A DNA stretch of 64,000 nt, taken from NCBI RefSeq assembly GCF_009905725.1, contig NZ_JAAAKV010000009.1, positions 62,001 to 126,000 of the forward strand. The letters are read 5' to 3'. The position numbers were made by a program, and so were the translations under genes. This document shows positions 1,498 to 25,526 of the stretch, in pieces; within the stretch, counting starts at the first letter, position 1, and the number at the start of each line of letters is the position of its first letter. The notes beneath the pieces are model-generated. The model was not told the DNA's origin. It searched no databases and was given only the letters and a program-made list of their open reading frames with translations. The stretch is from Emticicia sp. CRIBPO (lineage in GTDB: Bacteria > Bacteroidota > Bacteroidia > Cytophagales > Spirosomataceae).

Positions 1498-2943
1498 TTA
1501 TCCTACTGATCCTTCCAGAGAGATTTCAAGTAATTTCTGAGCTTCTACGGCAAACTCCATCGGAAGCTGGTTCAATACTTCTTTCGCATATCCGTTGACA
1601 ATCAGGGCAACTGCGGTTTCACTGTCAATTCCCCTTTGATTACAATAGAACAACTGATCTTCTCCGATTTTTGAGGTCGTGGCTTCGTGTTCTACAGAAG
1701 CGGTCGAGTTGTTAACCTCAATATATGGGAAAGTATGGGCTCCGCATCTGTCACCCAGCAACATAGAGTCACACTGAGAGAAGTTACGGGCGTTGTCGGC
1801 TCTTTTCGAGATTTCAACCAGACCACGGTAAGAATTCTGGCTTCTTCCTGCAGAAATACCCTTGGAAACGATACGGCTCTTGGTATTTTTACCCAGGTGT
1901 ATCATTTTCGTTCCGGTATCTGCCTGCTGGTAATTGTTGGTCACCGCCACAGAATAGAACTCACCGATAGAATTATCTCCTTTCAGAACCACCGACGGAT
2001 ATTTCCAGGTAATCGCCGAACCGGTTTCTACCTGGGTCCATGATATTTTTGAATTGTCTCCGAAACAAAGACCTCTTTTCGTTACAAAATTGAAAACACC
2101 ACCAACACCGTTTTTATCACCGGGATACCAGTTTTGCACGGTTGAGTATTTAACTTCGGCTTTTTCATGACAGAAAATCTCCACCACAGCAGCGTGCAGC
2201 TGGTTTTCATCACGTGAAGGGGCGGTACAACCTTCCAGGTAACTTACGTAAGCTCCCTCGTCAGCAATAATCAGCGTACGTTCAAACTGACCTGTACCGG
2301 CCGCGTTAATCCTGAAGTAGGTCGAAAGCTCCATCGGGCATCTCACGCCCTTAGGAATGTAACAGAAAGATCCGTCAGAAAAAACAGCGGCATTTAATGC
2401 AGCATAGAAATTATCTTTTACCGGAACTACAGAACCCAGGTATTTCTTCACCAGCTCAGGGTGGTTATGTACCGCCTCAGATACTGAACAGAAGATAATA
2501 CCCATTTCACCCAGTTTTTCACGGAAGGTGGTCGCTACAGAAACCGAGTCAATGACCGCATCCACAGCCACACCTGATAATCTTTCCTGCTCTTTCAGAG
2601 AAATTCCAAGTCTTTCGAAGGTCTTTCTCAGTTCAGGATCAATCTCATCAAGGCTGTTGATCGTTTTCTTTTGCTTTGGAGCAGAATAATACTTAATAGC
2701 TTGAAAATCAGGTTTCTGATAAGTTACATTTGCCCATGTAGGCTCTGTAAGCTTCAACCATTCCCTGTAGGCACTCAAACGCCACTCCAATAACCACTCC
2801 GGCTCATTCTTTTTGGCTGAAATAAAACGAACTATATCCTCACTAAGCCCCGGAGGAGCTTCGTCAGCCTCTATATCAGTATAAAAACCGTATTTATAAT
2901 CCGAACTGGTCAGTTCTTCTAATAATTCTAAATCTTTGCTCAT
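1498..2943 (-). CDS. sufB: Fe-S cluster assembly scaffold SufB
   Basis: Cytosolic scaffold subunit that builds Fe-S clusters with SufC and SufD and receives sulfur from SufS. The 481-residue length is normal. The conserved [16 protein letters not shown] holds Cys239, the likely sulfur acceptor, and [11 protein letters not shown] holds Cys400, corresponding to the two functional cysteines known in E. coli SufB; I match them by motif. The gene is unusual in being alone: the upstream neighbour is an unrelated lipoprotein gene ending 91 bases away, and a terminator closes it downstream, so sufC, sufD and sufS must lie elsewhere. No clear TAnnTTTG promoter could be fixed in the upstream gap. Confidence 0.96.
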
Positions 2944-3034
2944 TTTTAAATATGTCGGATGTTGATCCTAACAATTATCTAACAGTTAAAAAAACAAATA
3001 TGTTCGCTAAAGCCGATTTATCTGAAACCCTGCC

Positions 3035-3511
3035 TTACTTCACCACTGCAAAGGTAATCACTCCTGAATAAGTGGTACCATTAAACTGGATATCTGTTGT
3101 TCCGGTAAAGGAATTGTCATTGATATCCGTGATGACTAATTTAGCGTTTTCAATAGTACGGCCTAAAAACACGAACTTGCTGATATTGATACTCTTCTCG
3201 GTTTCATTCAATACCCATGATGATTTCAGGATCAGGTCGGGATTACCGGCATCGCATTTCGTAGCCCCTTCTCTGAACTCGTAACTCTTGTCGGTAAACA
3301 ATACCAGGAGGTTGTCTGTGTCACAAGCTTTCTGTCCGGACAACAGGTCTACTTCTGCTGTGCCTTGCTTCACAACAACCTTGTTTACTTTCCATGTCTT
3401 TGATGTTGTTCCGGTAAGATATTCAAGTACCGGCTTTGGATCTTCTTTTTTCTTGCATGAGCTGGCCAATACCACCAATACCACACCAAGAATCAAACTG
3501 ATTTTTCTCAT
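3035..3511 (-). CDS. Lipocalin-like lipoprotein, function unknown
   Basis: A 158-residue lipoprotein: signal peptide with lipobox LASSC at residues 15-19 followed by a charged KKKEDPKP linker, then a beta-rich domain of about 130 residues (TGTTSKTWKV...SWVLNE...TGTTDIQFNGTTYSGVITF) that resembles the small lipocalin-like domains common in Bacteroidota. Its ATG overlaps the lpxB stop by one base (TAATG arrangement at 3509-3513), so it is probably translated by coupling to lpxB. A role at the outer membrane is likely from location, but no specific function can be read. Confidence 0.8.
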   Translation of the reverse strand: MRKISLILGVVLVVLASSCKKKEDPKPVLEYLTGTTSKTWKVNKVVVKQGTAEVDLLSGQKACDTDNLLVLFTDKSYEFREGATKCDAGNPDLILKSSWVLNETEKSINISKFVFLGRTIENAKLVITDINDNSFTGTTDIQFNGTTYSGVITFAVVK

Positions 3512-4623
3512 TACTTTTTTAAAATTAAATTAACGATTTCGGCCGAAGCCATTTTAGATGCACCTTCATGACCGAGTTTCTCGGACAATAAGGCGTATTC
3601 CATTAACTGTGCTTTTCTGTTTTTAGTATCTCCGGCTACCTTGTTCAACTCCTCTTTTACCCGATCTATAGCATAATCGCCCTGAATAAGCTCTTTTACC
3701 ACTTCTTTTTCCGAGACCAGGTTTACCAGGGAAATGTATTTGATCTTAACGAGACTTTTAGCGATCAGATACGACACATTACTGGTTTTATAGACCACCA
3801 CCTGGGGCACAGCAAAGAGAGCTGTTTCAAGGGTTGCCGTTCCTGAAGTCACCACTGCTGCCCTTGAAACGGACAGCAAATCGTAAGTCTGATCAAAAAC
3901 TATCTTAATATCACTTCCTGCCAGATGTTGTTCGTAAAATCCTTTGCCAAGGTTGCTTACGCCCGCTATCACCAGCTGATAATCTCTATATTCCGTACTC
4001 AAAGCCACCATCAGGCTGAGCATTTTTTCTACTTCCTGTTTACGGCTACCGGGCAAAAGGGCTATCACCGGTCGCTCATCCAGTTTGTTTTCCGTTCTGA
4101 AATGCTCATTCTTCCTGAATTTACCGATCTCGTCTTTCAGCGGATTCCCGACAAATGCGGTAGAAATGCCAAACTTACTGAAAAACTCAAGCTCAAAAGG
4201 AAAAATGACGAGCAGTTTGTCTACATACTTTTTGAGTTTGTAAACCCGGCTTTCGTTCCATGCCCAAGCCTTCGGGGCAATATAATAGGCAATTTTATAC
4301 CCTTCCCCTTTGGCCCATCTGGCCACCCTGAGATTAAACCCGGCGTAATCAACCAGGACAATCACATCAGGAGCAAACTCAGCAATCTGGACTTTGACAA
4401 GTTTGAGAAAACCAAGAATAACCCGGATATTTCTGATGACCTCTATAAAACCCATAAAGGCCAGCTCCCTGTAGTCCTTCAGGATGGTAGCCCCGGCCTC
4501 ACTCATACGGTCACCTCCCCATCCGGCAATTTCCGCCTCAGGATCAGCTGTTCTGATCTCTGAAATCAGATTCGAAGCATGTAAGTCACCGGATTTCTCA
4601 CCGGCAATAATAAAATACTTCAT
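3511..4623 (-). CDS. lpxB: Lipid-A-disaccharide synthase
   Basis: GT19 glycosyltransferase that joins UDP-2,3-diacylglucosamine and lipid X into the lipid A disaccharide at the inner face of the cytoplasmic membrane. Family landmarks are MKYFIIAGEKSGDLHASNL at the N-terminus, LLPGSRKQEVEKML mid-protein and SGTATLETALFAVPQVVVYK near the nucleotide-sugar site. The 370-residue length is standard. Its start codon abuts the queD stop with no gap, and its stop overlaps the following lipoprotein start, so the three genes form a tight operon in which queD is first. Confidence 0.95.
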   Translation of the reverse strand: MKYFIIAGEKSGDLHASNLISEIRTADPEAEIAGWGGDRMSEAGATILKDYRELAFMGFIEVIRNIRVILGFLKLVKVQIAEFAPDVIVLVDYAGFNLRVARWAKGEGYKIAYYIAPKAWAWNESRVYKLKKYVDKLLVIFPFELEFFSKFGISTAFVGNPLKDEIGKFRKNEHFRTENKLDERPVIALLPGSRKQEVEKMLSLMVALSTEYRDYQLVIAGVSNLGKGFYEQHLAGSDIKIVFDQTYDLLSVSRAAVVTSGTATLETALFAVPQVVVYKTSNVSYLIAKSLVKIKYISLVNLVSEKEVVKELIQGDYAIDRVKEELNKVAGDTKNRKAQLMEYALLSEKLGHEGASKMASAEIVNLILKK

Positions 4624-19173: not shown

Positions 19174-20106
19174 TTATGAAATGACCCTCGCTTTTATTTT
19201 TCTGAGAAAAAGTGGTATTTTAACATGCCCGAATGGATTTTTATCCATCCTGATGAAAATAATAGCCGTCAGAATACCCGCCATACTGATCAGGTGACGG
19301 ACAGAAAACGCCTCATTATCCACCACACCCCACAAAATAGCCACTATGGGGATGATGTAAGTAGAAGTACTGGCAAACAGTGAAGATGAAATACTGATGA
19401 TCTTGTTTTGCAGCAACTGGGCCAGGGCCGTACCCAGTACACCCAGTGTAATAAGAGCCAGGAATGGTACCATTTGATCACTTATGTTCTGATAGGCCTC
19501 CTGCCCGGGAAGGAAAACAAGGAAAAATACAATTATTCCAGCGAAAGATACACTTACAGCACTCAGACTGAAAGAAGGCACATCTGCCAGGTATGTTTTC
19601 ACAAAATTGATATTCAGACCATAACAAACCGTTGCCCCGATGATCAGCAAACCATAGATATTAAAGGACAACGAGGACGCTGACCCGGCAAAAACCAAAA
19701 ACACCGAGCTGACCAGACCCAGCACCAGTCCAATCACCTGCAGGAAGTAATATTTACTCTTAAAGAAAAACATTGAAAACAGGAACGTAAAGCTGGGCGT
19801 AAGGGCATTGAGTATCCCGGCCACAGAACTCTGTATGTTTTGCTGGGATATACAGAACAGGTAAGCCGGAATCACCATGCTCAGGAGTGAAACCACCAAA
19901 ACCAAAGGCAGTTTCTGACGGGGAATTTTTCGGAAATGATAGAGCCCGAACGGCAAAGCCACCAGCCCGGCCGACATCAGCCTGATGGTAGCCGCCTCAA
20001 TAAAACCAAAGCCCGTCAGGCCCTTTTTGATCAGTATAAAACTGCTGCCCCATATCAGTGATAAAAGAATGAGCAGAAACCATTTCAGAAGAGCGTTATT
20101 TTTCAT
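19174..20106 (-). CDS. EamA-family (DMT) transporter
   Basis: A 310-residue inner-membrane protein with about ten transmembrane helices arranged as two EamA repeats; the hallmark LLSLIWGSSFILIKKGL opens the first and the second begins near residue 150 (YGLLIIGATVCYGLNINFVK). Such proteins export or import metabolites, often amino acids. It is divergent from a LysR regulator, the classic arrangement for a LysR-controlled exporter. The substrate cannot be read. Confidence 0.9.
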   Translation of the reverse strand: MKNNALLKWFLLILLSLIWGSSFILIKKGLTGFGFIEAATIRLMSAGLVALPFGLYHFRKIPRQKLPLVLVVSLLSMVIPAYLFCISQQNIQSSVAGILNALTPSFTFLFSMFFFKSKYYFLQVIGLVLGLVSSVFLVFAGSASSLSFNIYGLLIIGATVCYGLNINFVKTYLADVPSFSLSAVSVSFAGIIVFFLVFLPGQEAYQNISDQMVPFLALITLGVLGTALAQLLQNKIISISSSLFASTSTYIIPIVAILWGVVDNEAFSVRHLISMAGILTAIIFIRMDKNPFGHVKIPLFLRKIKARVIS

Positions 20107-20139
20107 GTTTTCCTATTTTTTTTCTGCGACAAAATTGAA

Positions 20140-20166
20140 AAGTATACATGATTAAAAAAAATACTT
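20140..20166. promoter_or_regulatory. Candidate LysR-box in divergent intergenic region
   Basis: AAGTAT (20140-20145) and ATACTT (20161-20166) form an interrupted dyad containing T-N11-A spacing candidates in the 93-base gap between the transporter and lysR. Position fits a LysR operator; the AT-rich surroundings make chance likely enough to keep confidence low. Confidence 0.35.
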
Positions 20167-20199
20167 ATTTTTACTCAACTGATCGAAAAAATCAATCAA

Positions 20200-21102
20200 A
20201 TGAATTTAGAACAATTAAAGAATTTCCTGGTAGTAGCTGAAGTGCTGAATTATCATAAAGCGGCAGAGAAAATCCTCATTGCCCAGCCTGCCCTGAGCCG
20301 GCAGATCATGCAGCTGGAAGAAGAAGTCGGGGCCATGCTGTTTGACCGCTCTAAAAAAAGGATCTGCCTTACTTCTGCCGGAAGGGTTTTCAGGGAAGAC
20401 GCCGAATTGATCGTCAGCCAGTGGAACCAGGCCAAACGCAAGGCAAGGCTTGTGCACGAGGGCAAAGCAGGCAAACTCCGGGTCGGACATTCCAGTTCTG
20501 CCATGCACACGCTGATTCCTTGCTTGATGAGGTACTTCAGGCGGCATAGCCCGGACCTTAAACTGACCCTGACAGAAAGCAATAACCTCCACGTTTTCGA
20601 AATGCTGAGCACCGGTAAAATTGATTTTGGCTTCCTGCCTAACGCCATGATCTCCGAAGGGTTCAAAAGCATCACGGTGTATAAGGAAAACTACATGCTG
20701 ATTTTACCCGGAACAGATGACAATACCATTAAAAGCAAAAATCTCAAAAATTATTGCCACGACAAATGGATACTCCATCCGGCTTCAGACGGCATCGGTT
20801 ACATGGAATCCATTCAGAGGATCTTTGAAAGAGCGGGTTTTAACCCTGATACTGTTCACGAATCACCCAACACCTCCAGCGTGCTCCGCATGGTGGCAGA
20901 AGGCTTCGGTAATGCCATCATGGGCAAAACCACACTGAAAGGATTTGACCTCAACATTGAGGCCATTGAGCTTGACAACATTCCTGAAAAGCTGGAAATG
21001 AAACTGATATGGAAAGAAAGCCGTGAAAATGAGTTGTCGGTTTATCTGGATCAGATCAAGGCATTTATAGAAAGTGAAAAGGACTTTCTGACTTCTTTCT
21101 GA
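20200..21102 (+). CDS. LysR-family transcriptional regulator
   Basis: A 300-residue LysR regulator: N-terminal winged HTH (MNLEQLKNFLVVAEVLNYHKAAEKILIAQPALSRQIMQLEEEVGAMLFDR, residues 1-50) and a two-lobed substrate-binding domain (about 90-295; GKLRVGHSSSAMHTLIPCLMRYFR). Divergent from the EamA transporter and convergent with the MBL hydrolase, whose stop is 13 bases away. It most likely controls the transporter in response to a small molecule. Confidence 0.93.
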   Translation: MNLEQLKNFLVVAEVLNYHKAAEKILIAQPALSRQIMQLEEEVGAMLFDRSKKRICLTSAGRVFREDAELIVSQWNQAKRKARLVHEGKAGKLRVGHSSSAMHTLIPCLMRYFRRHSPDLKLTLTESNNLHVFEMLSTGKIDFGFLPNAMISEGFKSITVYKENYMLILPGTDDNTIKSKNLKNYCHDKWILHPASDGIGYMESIQRIFERAGFNPDTVHESPNTSSVLRMVAEGFGNAIMGKTTLKGFDLNIEAIELDNIPEKLEMKLIWKESRENELSVYLDQIKAFIESEKDFLTSF

Positions 21103-21115
21103 TTAACCGGAAAAA

Positions 21116-22162
21116 TCAGAAAAAATGTGGTTCACCGAGTTTTACTATTTTTAACTCCCGGTTGATCTTGCCCTCCTCATTCAGCTTATTGAGTATTTCC
21201 TCAGGTTCGCCCATGGGCTCATCTGCCGAATCGAAAGTGCCGTAATGAAAAGGGATAAAGGTTTTGGCCGCGGTATCATGAAAGGCCTGCACGGCCTGAT
21301 AAGGGTCCTGGTGATGAGGCGACATAAACCAGCCGGGAGCATATGCCCCCGCTCCTATCAAGGCCACATCTATATCCGGAAATAACCTGCCAATTTCCCT
21401 GAAGTGACCGTCGTACCCGGAATCGCCACCGTAATAAATGCATTTACCTCCGGATTGTATCATAAAACCTCCCCAAAGTGTGGTATTGACATCAAAAGGA
21501 CTCCTGTTAGCCCAATGCCTTGAGGGCAGAAAGGTAATCTTAAGATCATTCTTCAGGTCGTATTGCTGATACCATCCCGCCGCCTGTACCTGGTTATCCA
21601 CCCAGCCTGACAACAATCTGTCAAGCTGCAGGCCGCATAATAATTGTGCCTGGGGGTTGTTTTTGACCAGCAATTTCACACTTAGTTTGTCGCAATGATC
21701 GTAATGGGCGTGTGAAACTAAAATATAGTCAATGTTCAGTAACTTACCCGGATCCACCGGTAATTCCGAATATCTTTTACCAACAGGGAGTTTCCCGAAA
21801 ACGGGGTCGATAATGATGCGTTTTCCTGAAAGCTGGATAAAAAAAGTAGCATGTCCCAGCCAGACTATCTTATCCCTTGGGTCGTCAAGCCAGGAATCAT
21901 CCTTTAAAACCCCGATCCTCCAGGTATCCTTTGCCTTGAATGCCCGCTGGGGATTTCTCTGAAATACAAACTTCAGCAACGCCCGAAAACTGATTATTGT
22001 AGGAAACTCCTCATTGATAAACAAGCCTTTCTGGTCAACCGGGGTACCCTGGTAGTTTTCCCTGACCGTTAAGAGGGAGGGATTGTTGGTATAGCTCTTG
22101 ATGACCGGTGCTGTATTCTTTCTGAAAATAACCCGCATAATTAATAAGGTGATGGTTAACAT
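21116..22162 (-). CDS. Membrane-associated MBL-fold hydrolase (NAPE-PLD/UlaG-like)
   Basis: Metallo-beta-lactamase-fold protein of up to 348 residues. Metal ligands are visible in LVSHAHYDHCDKL (HxHxDH), RHWANR, GGDSGYDGHF and the C-terminal PFHYGTF; WLGHATFFIQLSGKRIIIDPVF is the leading beta-strand motif of the NAPE-phospholipase D/UlaG-like branch. A hydrophobic N-terminus (MLTITLLIMRVIF) suggests membrane association; an alternative start is Met9 (22138). It follows the AraC regulator by 32 bases and is probably the third gene of the methyltransferase-AraC-MBL unit. A phospholipid or lactone substrate is possible but unproven. Confidence 0.85.
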   Translation of the reverse strand: MLTITLLIMRVIFRKNTAPVIKSYTNNPSLLTVRENYQGTPVDQKGLFINEEFPTIISFRALLKFVFQRNPQRAFKAKDTWRIGVLKDDSWLDDPRDKIVWLGHATFFIQLSGKRIIIDPVFGKLPVGKRYSELPVDPGKLLNIDYILVSHAHYDHCDKLSVKLLVKNNPQAQLLCGLQLDRLLSGWVDNQVQAAGWYQQYDLKNDLKITFLPSRHWANRSPFDVNTTLWGGFMIQSGGKCIYYGGDSGYDGHFREIGRLFPDIDVALIGAGAYAPGWFMSPHHQDPYQAVQAFHDTAAKTFIPFHYGTFDSADEPMGEPEEILNKLNEEGKINRELKIVKLGEPHFF

Positions 22163-22194: not shown

Positions 22195-23022
22195 TTACCG
22201 GAGATTTTCAGAAGATTGATTTAAAACATGGGTAGGCGAATAACCGTAATGCTTTTTGAAAGCAAAAGAAAAATGGGAAAGATTCTCAAAACCTGCTTCA
22301 AAATAAACGTCTACCGGTTTTCTTTTTTTCTCCTGCAGATAATAATAAGCCAACTCCAGTCTTTTTGTTGTAAGCCATTTCTGTGGCGTAGTATTAAATG
22401 ATTTTTTAAAATCCCTTTTGAAGGTAGTCAGGCTCCTGCCTGTCTGATAGCCGAATTTTTCCATGGTGATATTGAACATGTAGTTTTTTTCCATAAAATC
22501 GACCAGGTCAATTTTACCGGGTTCTTCAAAGTTGGCCAGCAGCCTGTCCACTTTAATATCCACACTGCGAAGTATGCTGATGGCTTCAGTGATTTTCAAT
22601 GCGGCTATATTTTCAGGGAATTTGTCCTGCATATCAAAGTAGGGTATCAGGGAAGCCATGAAACTTTCCAGCAAAGGATGGTTCTTATAACACATGATGT
22701 CATTGAGGGGCATTACACTTTGGGTAAGCTCAAGATGATGGTAAAACTCTTTGAGTGTGGCGGCTGACAAATGCATGGCGACCGATTTGTGAGGATAGCC
22801 ATCTTTTGGTGTCAGGATCACAGAAGTCAGCTTATGTCTCGGGATCAGAAAAATGTCGCCGGGATTAAACACGCAAGTCCCGTCTGCCTGAATAATTTTG
22901 GTCTCCCCTGAAATGGACCAGATAAGCATGTGATGGTCAAAAAATACCTCTGTCGTACTCAATTTCTCCTTATAAACAGATAACTTAATATCGGGTGTAA
23001 TGTATTTTGTCTGAAAATCCAT
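22195..23022 (-). CDS. AraC-family transcriptional regulator
   Basis: A 275-residue regulator with an N-terminal sensor domain (about residues 20-150, with the cupin-like FNPGDIFLIPRHKLTSVIL) and a C-terminal pair of helix-turn-helix motifs (about 180-270: FGYQTGRSLTTFKRDFKKSFNTTPQKWLTTKRLELAYYYL and DVYFEAGFENLSHFSFAFKKHYGYSPTHVL). It lies 23 bases after the methyltransferase gene. Four copies of a 17-bp direct repeat at the promoters of its own unit and of the adjacent NTF2-hydrolase unit are the obvious candidate targets. Confidence 0.93.
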   Translation of the reverse strand: MDFQTKYITPDIKLSVYKEKLSTTEVFFDHHMLIWSISGETKIIQADGTCVFNPGDIFLIPRHKLTSVILTPKDGYPHKSVAMHLSAATLKEFYHHLELTQSVMPLNDIMCYKNHPLLESFMASLIPYFDMQDKFPENIAALKITEAISILRSVDIKVDRLLANFEEPGKIDLVDFMEKNYMFNITMEKFGYQTGRSLTTFKRDFKKSFNTTPQKWLTTKRLELAYYYLQEKKRKPVDVYFEAGFENLSHFSFAFKKHYGYSPTHVLNQSSENLR

Positions 23023-23045: not shown

Positions 23046-23804
23046 TTAAAAAGTGGCATAAATCAGCATCCTTTTGAAGGCATAAATGGCCGGCATTTTG
23101 GGAAAGTGCAGTTTGATTCTTTCCCTGAATACCTTTACAAACTCCTCTTTAACATCACCCGGAAACCTCTCCATATAAGGCAGCAAGGAAGACCCCGAGA
23201 TAAAATCGAAAAGGTTCCCATGATCATTGGCAATAATCGGATATACCTTCTGGTAAATCGTCATTGAAGTGGCGTCATGTTCAAAAAGCAATTGAGCATA
23301 TTCATCCATGGAAAGCACAGGCGATTCTCTTTTCCAGTTGTTCAGAACTGCAGCAAAATAATCTTCCCCCGCCACCTCCAGCAGAAGCTTATTCAAAACA
23401 TTTTCGGTCTGCGAAGGCATTTGTACGGCAAGCTGTCCTCCCTTGTTCAGTTTTGAAATTATCTGCGGTAACAAGGTTTCGTGATGCTCCACCCACTGCA
23501 AAGCGGCATTGGCAAATATCACATCCCATTTCCCGGGTTTTCCGAGCTCGTTCTCTATGGTCGATAGTTCAAAACTCAGATTTGACGCAGGCATCGCTTT
23601 GGCAAGCATTTCTTTTGAATTATCAATCCCTGTTACCGTTGAACCGTCCAGTTTTTCAGCCAAAAACTTAGTCAGCTCACCTGTGCCGCAGCCCAGGTCA
23701 ATCACTTTCATCCCTGGTTTAACCTGAATATGGCCCATGAGGTCAAATGCGGGGAGATACCGTTCATTTTTAAACTGATCATATTTTTCCGGATTCCATG
23801 CCAT
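23046..23804 (-). CDS. SAM-dependent methyltransferase, trans-aconitate type
   Basis: Class I methyltransferase of 252 residues resembling trans-aconitate 2-methyltransferase (Tam). The opening MAWNPEKYDQFKNERYLPAFDLM and motif I VIDLGCGTGELTKFLAEKL are characteristic, followed by GIDNSKEML, FANAALQWVEHHETLL and the C-terminal substrate cap. I chose the ATG at 23802-23804 because the open frame upstream overlaps its own promoter elements (TACTTTTG at 23873-23880). First gene of a unit with araC and the MBL gene; the true methyl acceptor is uncertain. Confidence 0.88.
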   Translation of the reverse strand: MAWNPEKYDQFKNERYLPAFDLMGHIQVKPGMKVIDLGCGTGELTKFLAEKLDGSTVTGIDNSKEMLAKAMPASNLSFELSTIENELGKPGKWDVIFANAALQWVEHHETLLPQIISKLNKGGQLAVQMPSQTENVLNKLLLEVAGEDYFAAVLNNWKRESPVLSMDEYAQLLFEHDATSMTIYQKVYPIIANDHGNLFDFISGSSLLPYMERFPGDVKEEFVKVFRERIKLHFPKMPAIYAFKRMLIYATF

Positions 23805-23872: not shown

Positions 23873-23938
23873 CAAAAGTAAATGATCTCAATTTAGCAAA
23901 CTTTGTTTAAAAGACCTTTTTATTTTGTTAAAAAGACC
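23873..23938 (-). promoter_or_regulatory. AraC-type promoter: TTTG-N16-TACTTTTG plus two 17-bp direct repeats
   Basis: On the minus strand TACTTTTG (23873-23880), a 16-base spacer and TTTG (23897-23900). Immediately upstream are two direct repeats written on the plus strand as ACTTTGTTTAAAAGACC (23900-23916) and ATTTTGTTAAAAAGACC (23922-23938), 22 bp apart. The nearer repeat touches the -33 element. The short spacer suggests an activator-dependent promoter. The same layout recurs at 25461-25526. Confidence 0.75.
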
Positions 23939-23993
23939 TTTTAAACTGATTCACTATATTGTCTCTTCATATTTCATTTCCGGCTGGCAAAAC

Positions 23994-24962
23994 TCATTTG
24001 TCATAAACATACTTGTCAATATAAGAACTATAGGAATCCAGGAGAAAAGCCCATGCCTTTTTGCTGATTTCCAGTTTTGGAAACATGATCTCAAAAGCAT
24101 GAAAACACCCTTCATAGAGTTGAAAAGCCACGGGCTTGCCTGCTTTCTTCAGATTTTCCACGTAACTGACCGTTTCATCACAGAATGGTTCGATATCACC
24201 GACGAATGTAATGGCAGGAGGCAGTTTTGAGAAATCTCCGGCCCTGGCCGCCGCGGCATAAGCCGGAATCTGGATACCTTGCTCAGTTAAACTTTTCAGA
24301 TACAATCCCCAACCCAGTCTGTTTGACTTTGCATTCCAGCTCGGGGCATTATTGTCTGTGGCTGAGGCCGTGTTCTGGCGATCGTCGATCATGGGGTAGA
24401 TGGGCATCTGGAATGATATCTTTACCTCATCCGTATCCGTGGCTTTTAAAGTTACCGCGGCCGCAATCCCTCCACCTGCACTATGGCCACCTACGATGAT
24501 TTTCTCAGGCATAATGCCCAGCTCTTTTGCATTTTCGTTCATCCAGAGTAAGGTATCATAGCAGTCGTTGAAGGCCGCAGGATACGGGGCATCCAAAGCC
24601 TTACGATAATCGGGTGCAATAATCACACAGGGTCTTGCATCAATAAAACTTTTGATGACTGTCAGATAATCTTCAGGATTGCCCAGGAGATACCCGCCGC
24701 CATGGATGTACAACATCCCCGGCAAAGACTCATCGTGACCAAGGGGTTTAAAAACTCTGATCCTGATATCCGGGCCCCCATTTTTACTCTTTATAAATTT
24801 TTCTTCACCATGAATCCCTTCCATATTTTTACCCCTTGCCCTGGCACTGTTGCGGTTAAGCATCCCTATGCCGGCTTTATTCATCAGCAGACTTGAGGAA
24901 ATCTTCAACATCCAGTAGCTGGACTGCAGTTCTTTGTTGAGCATTTGTTTTGTAACTTTCAT
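23994..24962 (-). CDS. Alpha/beta hydrolase, HSL-like esterase
   Basis: A 322-residue esterase/lipase of the hormone-sensitive-lipase group: oxyanion motif HGGGYLLGN (near residue 88), nucleophile elbow GGHSAGGG, the acid in GDIEPFCDE and the histidine in YEGCFHAFE. No signal peptide is evident. It should hydrolyse small acyl esters in the cytoplasm. It starts 5 bases after the NTF2-like gene and is co-transcribed with it from the AraC-type promoter. Confidence 0.9.
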   Translation of the reverse strand: MKVTKQMLNKELQSSYWMLKISSSLLMNKAGIGMLNRNSARARGKNMEGIHGEEKFIKSKNGGPDIRIRVFKPLGHDESLPGMLYIHGGGYLLGNPEDYLTVIKSFIDARPCVIIAPDYRKALDAPYPAAFNDCYDTLLWMNENAKELGIMPEKIIVGGHSAGGGIAAAVTLKATDTDEVKISFQMPIYPMIDDRQNTASATDNNAPSWNAKSNRLGWGLYLKSLTEQGIQIPAYAAAARAGDFSKLPPAITFVGDIEPFCDETVSYVENLKKAGKPVAFQLYEGCFHAFEIMFPKLEISKKAWAFLLDSYSSYIDKYVYDK

Positions 24963-24967
24963 GGCCG

Positions 24968-25435
24968 TCAGTTTTTAGAGATTAAATCATTCAGTCCATT
25001 TGGGAAAAAGGCAGCCACAAATGATAGGGTATTCAGGAATTCACGGTGGCAGACTATCTTGCCGTCCTTAGCGATCAAATGAGCGATGTACAGTTGTCTG
25101 TAACTTCTGCCGTTGGCCATATTGGCTTCACTTTCATATTCAGCCACTACTTCATCCTGGGTTTCCATGACCATCCTGATGTTTTTCAGGCGAAAATCAG
25201 GGGCCGCCATCAAAAGATTGGACATGACGTCTTCTATCGCCGGCTTTCCGGTAATCGTAGGTGACATCCCGAAAGACGCTACATAAGGAGCCTCAATACA
25301 GCCGTTTTCTGTAAAGTAAGAAGCGGTTACTTTGGGATCGCCTTTACCGATACTGGTTAAATAATCGTTCAGTAACGAAGAGGCTGACGGGGTTTGCTGT
25401 GCTGTAAGAGCACTTTGTAATTTACTTTGTTCCAT
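24968..25435 (-). CDS. NTF2/SnoaL-like protein
   Basis: A 155-residue protein with the cone-shaped NTF2-like fold (LLNDYLTSIGKGDPKVTASYFTENGCIEAP, then GKPAIEDVMSNLLMAAPDFRLKNIRMVMETQDEVVAEYESEANMANGRSYRQLYIAHLIAKDGKIVCHREFLN). Members include ketosteroid-isomerase- and cyclase-like enzymes and carrier or sensor domains, so the reaction cannot be named. It is the first gene of a two-gene unit with an esterase, under a promoter shared in design with the neighbouring methyltransferase-araC unit. Confidence 0.85.
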   Translation of the reverse strand: MEQSKLQSALTAQQTPSASSLLNDYLTSIGKGDPKVTASYFTENGCIEAPYVASFGMSPTITGKPAIEDVMSNLLMAAPDFRLKNIRMVMETQDEVVAEYESEANMANGRSYRQLYIAHLIAKDGKIVCHREFLNTLSFVAAFFPNGLNDLISKN

Positions 25436-25460
25436 TCTTTTTATTGTTTAAATGATGAAA

Positions 25461-25526
25461 CAAAAGTAGCGGAACTTCGGAAGGCAAACTTTGTTAAAAA
25501 GGCCTTTTTACTTTGTTTAAAAGGCC
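25461..25526 (-). promoter_or_regulatory. AraC-type promoter of the NTF2-hydrolase unit
   Basis: Minus strand TACTTTTG (25461-25468), 16-base spacer, TTTG (25485-25488). Direct repeats read on the plus strand as ACTTTGTTAAAAAGGCC (25488-25504) and ACTTTGTTTAAAAGGCC (25510-25526), 22 bp apart. Spacer length, repeat spacing and overlap with -33 are identical to the promoter at 23873-23938. Confidence 0.75.

Follow-up and report, generated by a model that had tools for sequence, protein, structure and literature searches.

A paired operator in Emticicia, its putative AraC/XylS-type reader and a candidate residue-to-base map among relatives

Two adjacent gene units of Emticicia sp. CRIBPO carry the same pair of direct repeats in front of their first genes, and one of the units encodes an AraC-type regulator. 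What reads these repeats, how would the reader act on the promoters, and do the two units belong to one regulon? The window, that is, the whole 64,000-nt stretch of DNA analysed, holds the following features:

23873..23880, − strand: −7 element of unit 1, TACTTTTG (from the sequence; position conserved in relatives)
23901..23916, + strand: near half-site of operator 1, CTTTGTTTAAAAGACC (pair search and sequence)
23923..23938, + strand: far half-site of operator 1, TTTTGTTAAAAAGACC (pair search and sequence)
23046..23804, − strand: methyltransferase, trans-aconitate-methyltransferase-like, first gene of unit 1 (Pfam Methyltransf_31)
22195..23022, − strand: AraC/XylS-family regulator, 275 aa, second gene of unit 1 (Pfam HTH_18, HTH_AraC and ExsA_N)
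21116..22162, − strand: metallo-beta-lactamase-fold hydrolase, third gene of unit 1 (Pfam Lactamase_B_2)
25461..25468, − strand: −7 element of unit 2, TACTTTTG (from the sequence)
25489..25504, + strand: near half-site of operator 2, CTTTGTTAAAAAGGCC (pair search and sequence)
25511..25526, + strand: far half-site of operator 2, CTTTGTTTAAAAGGCC (pair search and sequence)
24968..25435, − strand: NTF2/SnoaL-like protein, first gene of unit 2 (Pfam SnoaL_2)
23994..24962, − strand: alpha/beta-hydrolase, a hormone-sensitive-lipase-like esterase, second gene of unit 2 (Pfam Abhydrolase_3)

Intergenic gaps within the two units measure 5 to 41 bases. The sequence-only reading of this locus had counted five enzymes; the units hold four enzyme-like genes and the regulator. 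The NCBIfam matches of the methyltransferase (PRK01683, 172 bits, cut-off 297) and the esterase (LipP1, 195 bits, cut-off 350) stay under their cut-offs, and PADLOC returned only two generic methyltransferase matches.

The two repeat pairs (23901-23938 and 25489-25526), each with a 22-bp period, are as the sequence-only reading described them. Dinucleotide shuffling of the window, repeated 100 times, yielded no such pair at up to three mismatches, and no further paired operator was found within the window. AYTTTGTTWAAAAGRCC fits all four window 17-mers. On the + strand, both promoters run in the same order: CAAAAGTA (TACTTTTG on the gene strand), 16 nt, CAAA (that is, TTTG), the near repeat, 6 nt and the far repeat, with the TTTGTT core of the near repeat 21 nt from the TAnnTTTG (−7) box. 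The search of the whole genome (6.06 Mb) suggested in that reading returned the window's two pairs as the only matches at up to three mismatches, with none for the reversed pattern, and a third pair at a looser score.

Across 222 genomes of the family, the strict pair was retrieved in 67 (90 sites), against 8 matches for the reversed control. It was present in 54 of the 79 genomes with an AraC match at E<=1e-65 and in 13 of the 143 others (Fisher p 3.9e-20, a value that ignores kinship). These 13 genomes are what would speak for a general promoter element or a chance repeat outside any regulon; yet in five of them (G145, G148, G156, G226 and G227) a relative of AraC lies behind the site. No AraC relative was seen for the other eight, of which the L110 and L111 sites lie inside ORFs and the remaining six outside the inspected loci. 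The window shuffles, the low count of pairs in the own genome and the reversed-pattern control led us to reject this explanation, to which we give next to no probability. Two further strict pairs, in G053 and G055, were set aside as they overlap ORFs unrelated to AraC, the G055 pair lying inside a tandem repeat.

A GCTC-type first half was found in 27 of the 90 sites. Among 18 loci of this type that we retrieved (L140-L157), a paralogous AraC ORF follows the site in 16, and none was paired in L142 and L144; in the loci opened, the gene between site and paralogue is another short-chain dehydrogenase (SDR). These matches proved to be a related regulator-operator pair before another SDR. The paralogous clade (L053:8848-9648 and L140-L157) has its own paired operator, mostly of the GCTC type, and its L053 member is 37% identical to the window AraC. 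A separate arrangement was observed in L160, where two successive paired operators (3344-3381 and 4037-4073) flank a short AraC-like ORF (43% identical).

Orthologues of AraC were drawn from this family, from 59 relatives and from named genomes, the last comprising 17 loci (Pedobacter, Chitinophaga, Mucilaginibacter, Siphonobacter, Chryseobacterium and two MAGs named to order only). We scanned 114 loci, 111 of which contained an AraC ORF passing the filter (112 ORFs), while L266, L287 and L291 gave none. L160, L161, L163, L164, L168, L175 and L176, fetched for their sites, were left outside this count; short AraC ORFs are present in L176 and L160. Co-conservation of the pair with araC, which the sequence-only reading had named as a check, was borne out in these relatives: the pair lies upstream of 108 of the 112 orthologue ORFs, with a period of 22 bp in 46 sites and 23 bp in 62. 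The score was at least 12, at a period of 21-24, for 107 ORFs, and L048 has a direct repeat that is clear by eye and scores 2.4. The pair is present in every one of the 17 named-genome loci, in 16 by score and in L048 by eye. The 108 sites are not fully independent: L249 duplicates L049, and one site enters the count twice through L250. In L250, two AraC orthologues (60% and 65%) share a best-scoring operator.

Scores in the controls reached at most 7.1 for reversed sequences and 7.4 for 2-mer shuffles (28 draws). The opposite strand reached 29.1 once, so that 100 of the 112 sites exceed every control. None of 20 loci of lower-scoring AraC relatives reached 12 (best 10.7), a comparison weaker than it appears because their flanks extend at most 1.5 kb and most orthologues have their true site about 1.1 kb upstream; these relatives are 26-35% identical, apart from L037, which is a fragment at a contig end with 58% identity over 76 residues. 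A site was not detected upstream of four of the 112 ORFs (L280, L283, L077 and L245). L245 is cut by the start of its contig, and a strict site of its genome precedes a cut SDR ORF on another contig (C30, locus L131). The two half-sites of a pair also share bases: their summed identity over nine positions was 7.19, against at most 5.92 in 2000 partner shuffles of the 108 sites (kinship ignored).

The protein encoded between the methyltransferase and metallohydrolase genes has a C-terminal double HTH (HTH_18, 64.7 bits against a cut-off of 33.6), whose helices are present in the structure model (mean pLDDT 86.5), and an N-terminal ExsA_N domain (41.2 bits against 27). Its profile matches SoxS and ExsA chains (ExsA chain 4zua, E 4.1e-05). 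The double HTH, the N-terminal domain and the tandem half-sites point to membership of the AraC/XylS family. In the model, the predicted recognition helices span residues ~198-209, with 199, 202 and 203, and ~248-259, with 252. The ExsA-like domain would sense a small-molecule inducer.

Whether this protein is the reader can be approached through covariation. Normalised mutual information served to compare operator bases with 262 protein columns in 129 regulator-operator pairs, consisting of the 108 above and 21 from the paralogous clade. For four bases, the best column fell within the two recognition helices: residue 202 for base 12 (0.67; next column 0.28), residue 203 for base 15 (0.36; next 0.27), residue 199 for base 14 (0.30; next 0.19) and residue 252 for base 8 (0.38; next 0.23). 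The same four columns ranked first after thinning to 83 proteins under 85% identity. Within the AraC clade alone (64), base 14 ranks residue 202 first and 199 second, and for base 15 residue 203 (0.37) is barely ahead of Q45 (0.35). For bases 7, 11 and 13, the best column is not one of the recognition-helix contact residues, and bases 9 and 10 score low.

Residue 202 and base 12 agree in all 129 pairs, making this the one code position free of exceptions. K or Q goes with G12 in 97 of 97 pairs (K202 with G/G in 95/95, Q202 with G/G in 2/2), and N, H or R with a base other than G in 32 of 32 (N202 in 27, H202 in four and R202 in one, never with G). R203 is accompanied by C/C in 106 of 114 cases and K203 by at least one G in 12 of 13. 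T199 occurs with C/C (62/71) and A199 with T/T (20/20), S199 being mixed (T/T in 26/36). For the second helix, G252 is found with T/T (21/22) and S252 with A/A (91/106). Exceptions number 8 of 129 for 203/15, 13 of 129 for 199/14 and 15 of 128 for 252/8. On a tree built without the contact columns, we counted changes of residue, base and joint state: 7, 7 and 7 for 202/12; 3, 9 and 9 for 203/15; 11, 16 and 20 for 199/14; and 1, 11 and 11 for 252/8. By these counts, only 202/12 has many matched changes. Strongly supported branches provide two independent residue-202 pairs, both agreeing, which are too few for a sign test.

In a profile alignment, residues 199, 202 and 203 fall on W36, Q39 and R40 of SoxS. 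MarA and SoxS differ in binding single sites as monomers, two tandem sites being present here. We take the three SoxS residues to be equivalent to Trp42, Gln45 and Arg46 of MarA. A passage of PMC3315485 describes these MarA residues, in helix 3, as contacting bases in the MarA-DNA structure. HTH1 would thus use residues 199, 202 and 203 to read the promoter-distal end of each half-site (G12-x-C14-C15, which is variable), and HTH2 would read the promoter-proximal TTTGTT/A8 end, beside RNA polymerase. Base reading by both recognition helices is thus indicated indirectly, through covariation at 199, 202, 203 and 252.

Regulators can adjoin sites that they do not bind, and AraC might be a bystander in the operon while another regulator reads the repeats. 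This is very improbable given the 129/129 agreement of residue 202 with base 12, their seven joint changes and the fact that each of four bases has its best column in one of the two recognition helices. Since orthologues keep the pair and their residues covary with its bases, there is strong support for the embedded AraC as the predicted reader of both window sites, as the sequence-only reading had assumed.

The covariation also suggests, with somewhat better than even odds, that this regulator clade provides a readable recognition code for AraC-type double-HTH proteins: K/Q with G and N/H with T/C for residue 202 and base 12; R with C and K with G for 203 and base 15; T with C and S/A with T for 199 and base 14; and S with A and G with T for 252 and base 8. 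Specificity would then move one residue at a time. If so, the targets of related regulators become predictable, and sequence alone would suffice to read the operators, hence the regulons, of many Bacteroidota AraC proteins not yet characterised; many AraC-type proteins in the searched genomes lack a known operator. Comparisons of regulator columns with operator bases by mutual-information-type measures, like ours, have been made for GntR, MerR and other families, according to parts of PMC4494728 and PMC5045206; the term AraC does not appear in either main text. Among titles and abstract beginnings of the open-access PMC literature, we found no report on the regulator, on its operator or on a recognition code for AraC proteins, which is a weak sign of novelty. 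The mechanism is of the AraC/XylS type, a kind already known, and the residue-base map is the part of specialist interest.

The position of the operator relative to the promoter bears on how AraC would act. In 92 of the 108 sites, the near-repeat TTTGTT core (AACAAA end) is separated by 21 nt from an exact TAnnTTTG (20 nt from the 16-mer); GAnnTTTG occupies the same place in 14, and in two (L050 and L290) the box is one base off. The near half-site therefore stands where the −33 element would be, its distance to the −7 box being fixed, and no −33 element is conserved beside it in the orthologous sites compared. The sequence-only reading had described a TTTG followed by a 16-nt spacer and had based activator dependence on this short spacer. 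The feature is present at both window promoters but is not kept: apart from the window's own, none of the 108 sites shows it, and it is absent from the third own pair, on contig 35. We rejected it as a promoter feature. The Bacteroides promoter consensus consists of TAnnTTTG at −7 and TTTG around −33, and no −33 motif could be identified in Flavobacterium johnsoniae (both from a portion of PMC7366714); a missing −33 box is, for the latter reason, no proof of activator dependence by itself.

The near half-site over the −35/−33 position, at a fixed distance from the box, recalls class II activator promoters, and from this geometry bound AraC most likely activates, its own unit included (class II activation with autoregulation). 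AraC (22195-23022) would bind as two head-to-tail subunits to the direct half-sites CTTTGTTnAAAnGnC, at a period of 22-23 bp, and would replace the missing −33 contact. The same placement would also suit a roadblock, in which AraC bound over −33 keeps RNA polymerase off until an inducer removes it, so that it mainly represses at these sites. We consider repression improbable, as the promoter looks weak without AraC, no −33 element being conserved beside the site, and as XylS, with the same tandem layout, activates Pm (PMC5481539).

The arrangement has precedents. At araI1/araI2, E. coli AraC likewise occupies direct half-sites of 17 bp, arranged in tandem with a 21-bp spacing next to −35; here the half-site differs and the regulated genes are of the oxidoreductase type. 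The XylS repeats at Pm have a period of 21 bp, unlike the 22-23 bp here, where a Bacteroidota TAnnTTTG −7 box at fixed distance, an ExsA-like N-terminal domain and unrelated enzymes are further differences. Tandem direct repeats and two HTH recognition helices are common to both systems: sections of PMC5481539 describe two 15-bp repeats at Pm, two HTH recognition helices and a first monomer that binds the promoter-proximal repeat, and a title cited there states that the XylS site overlaps that of RNA polymerase.

We favour, at a probability of roughly 0.83, the reading in which AraC recognises the half-site pairs before its own unit, the NTF2-esterase unit and an SDR gene on another contig, with class II activation as the proposed mechanism. 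The predicted targets are, then, the methyltransferase-araC-metallohydrolase unit, the NTF2-esterase unit and this SDR gene, which lies on contig 35 and is 71% identical to the Pedobacter query. The third own pair precedes it with a period of 22, a score of 42.5 and an equally distant −7 box. One of its half-sites, the near one, had appeared among the single half-site matches of the own genome at one mismatch; four others of these, L001 and L006-L008 (outside the window), had no partner, the other 11 non-window matches lying outside this check. The five-gene regulon of the sequence-only reading was accordingly too small. Behind the contig-35 SDR, L297 encodes a DUF6597 protein with a sub-threshold HTH_18 match (2613-3371) and a FAD-binding protein (3400-3984).

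An SDR of ~340 aa comes first behind the site in 82 of the 108 loci. Elsewhere this place is taken by an epimerase-type SDR (12), AraC itself (4), another SDR type (3), an aldo/keto reductase (2), a zinc alcohol dehydrogenase (1) or the window NTF2 protein (1), and three first genes are unassigned; Pfam was consulted for examples. In three genomes of one genus, a single site is followed by an SDR-NTF2 fusion, an esterase (69-70%), a metallophosphoesterase and AraC; the SDR and the NTF2-like domain are fused in one ORF (L165:1208-2746).

Linkage of the window enzymes to AraC follows similarity. Among the 10 non-own NTF2 homologues, the three closest (58-60%) lie in the fusion operon with AraC, and the seven others (33-38%) are not near AraC; scripted distances covered part of the AraC positions, and for G013, G125 and G213 a separation of at least 250 kb was read from match coordinates. 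The three closest of six esterase homologues (69-70%) are in the AraC operon, and the other three (49-52%) are not. For the metallohydrolase (43 non-own homologues), the four closest (67-68%) adjoin AraC and none of the others was found close to one, 14 of the 43 being measured by script and the rest judged by eye as lying on other contigs or in genomes without AraC. One of the 31 non-own methyltransferase homologues adjoins AraC: that of highest identity (54%, G124), 12th by E-value. The closest homologues travel with this regulator, the methyltransferase link resting on one genome. This linkage supports the proposal of the sequence-only reading that the two window units belong to one regulon.

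The methyltransferase might instead be a recent passenger, its promoter gained by insertion and its product without a role in the pathway. Of its non-own homologues, 30 of 31 are not beside AraC (two judged by coordinates), and an SDR is the usual first gene. Against this, the G124 homologue lies directly behind AraC in an SDR-AraC-methyltransferase operon, and we regard the passenger explanation as unlikely, though less so than repression. Judged by their composition, which varies and includes NAD(P)-dependent oxidoreductases, an esterase, a SnoaL-like protein, a methyltransferase and a metallohydrolase, these gene sets may act on small carbonyl or ester compounds, and the enzymes may form a catabolic or detoxifying set for one such compound class. 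If the regulon holds, a single window will have led to an operator, its reader, a fixed geometry with the operator at −33, a contig-spanning regulon and a residue-to-base map, and it offers a small group of enzymes for which a shared substrate can be looked for through induction. Adjoining the regulon, an EamA-type transporter and a LysR regulator are encoded divergently at 19174-21102 of the window.
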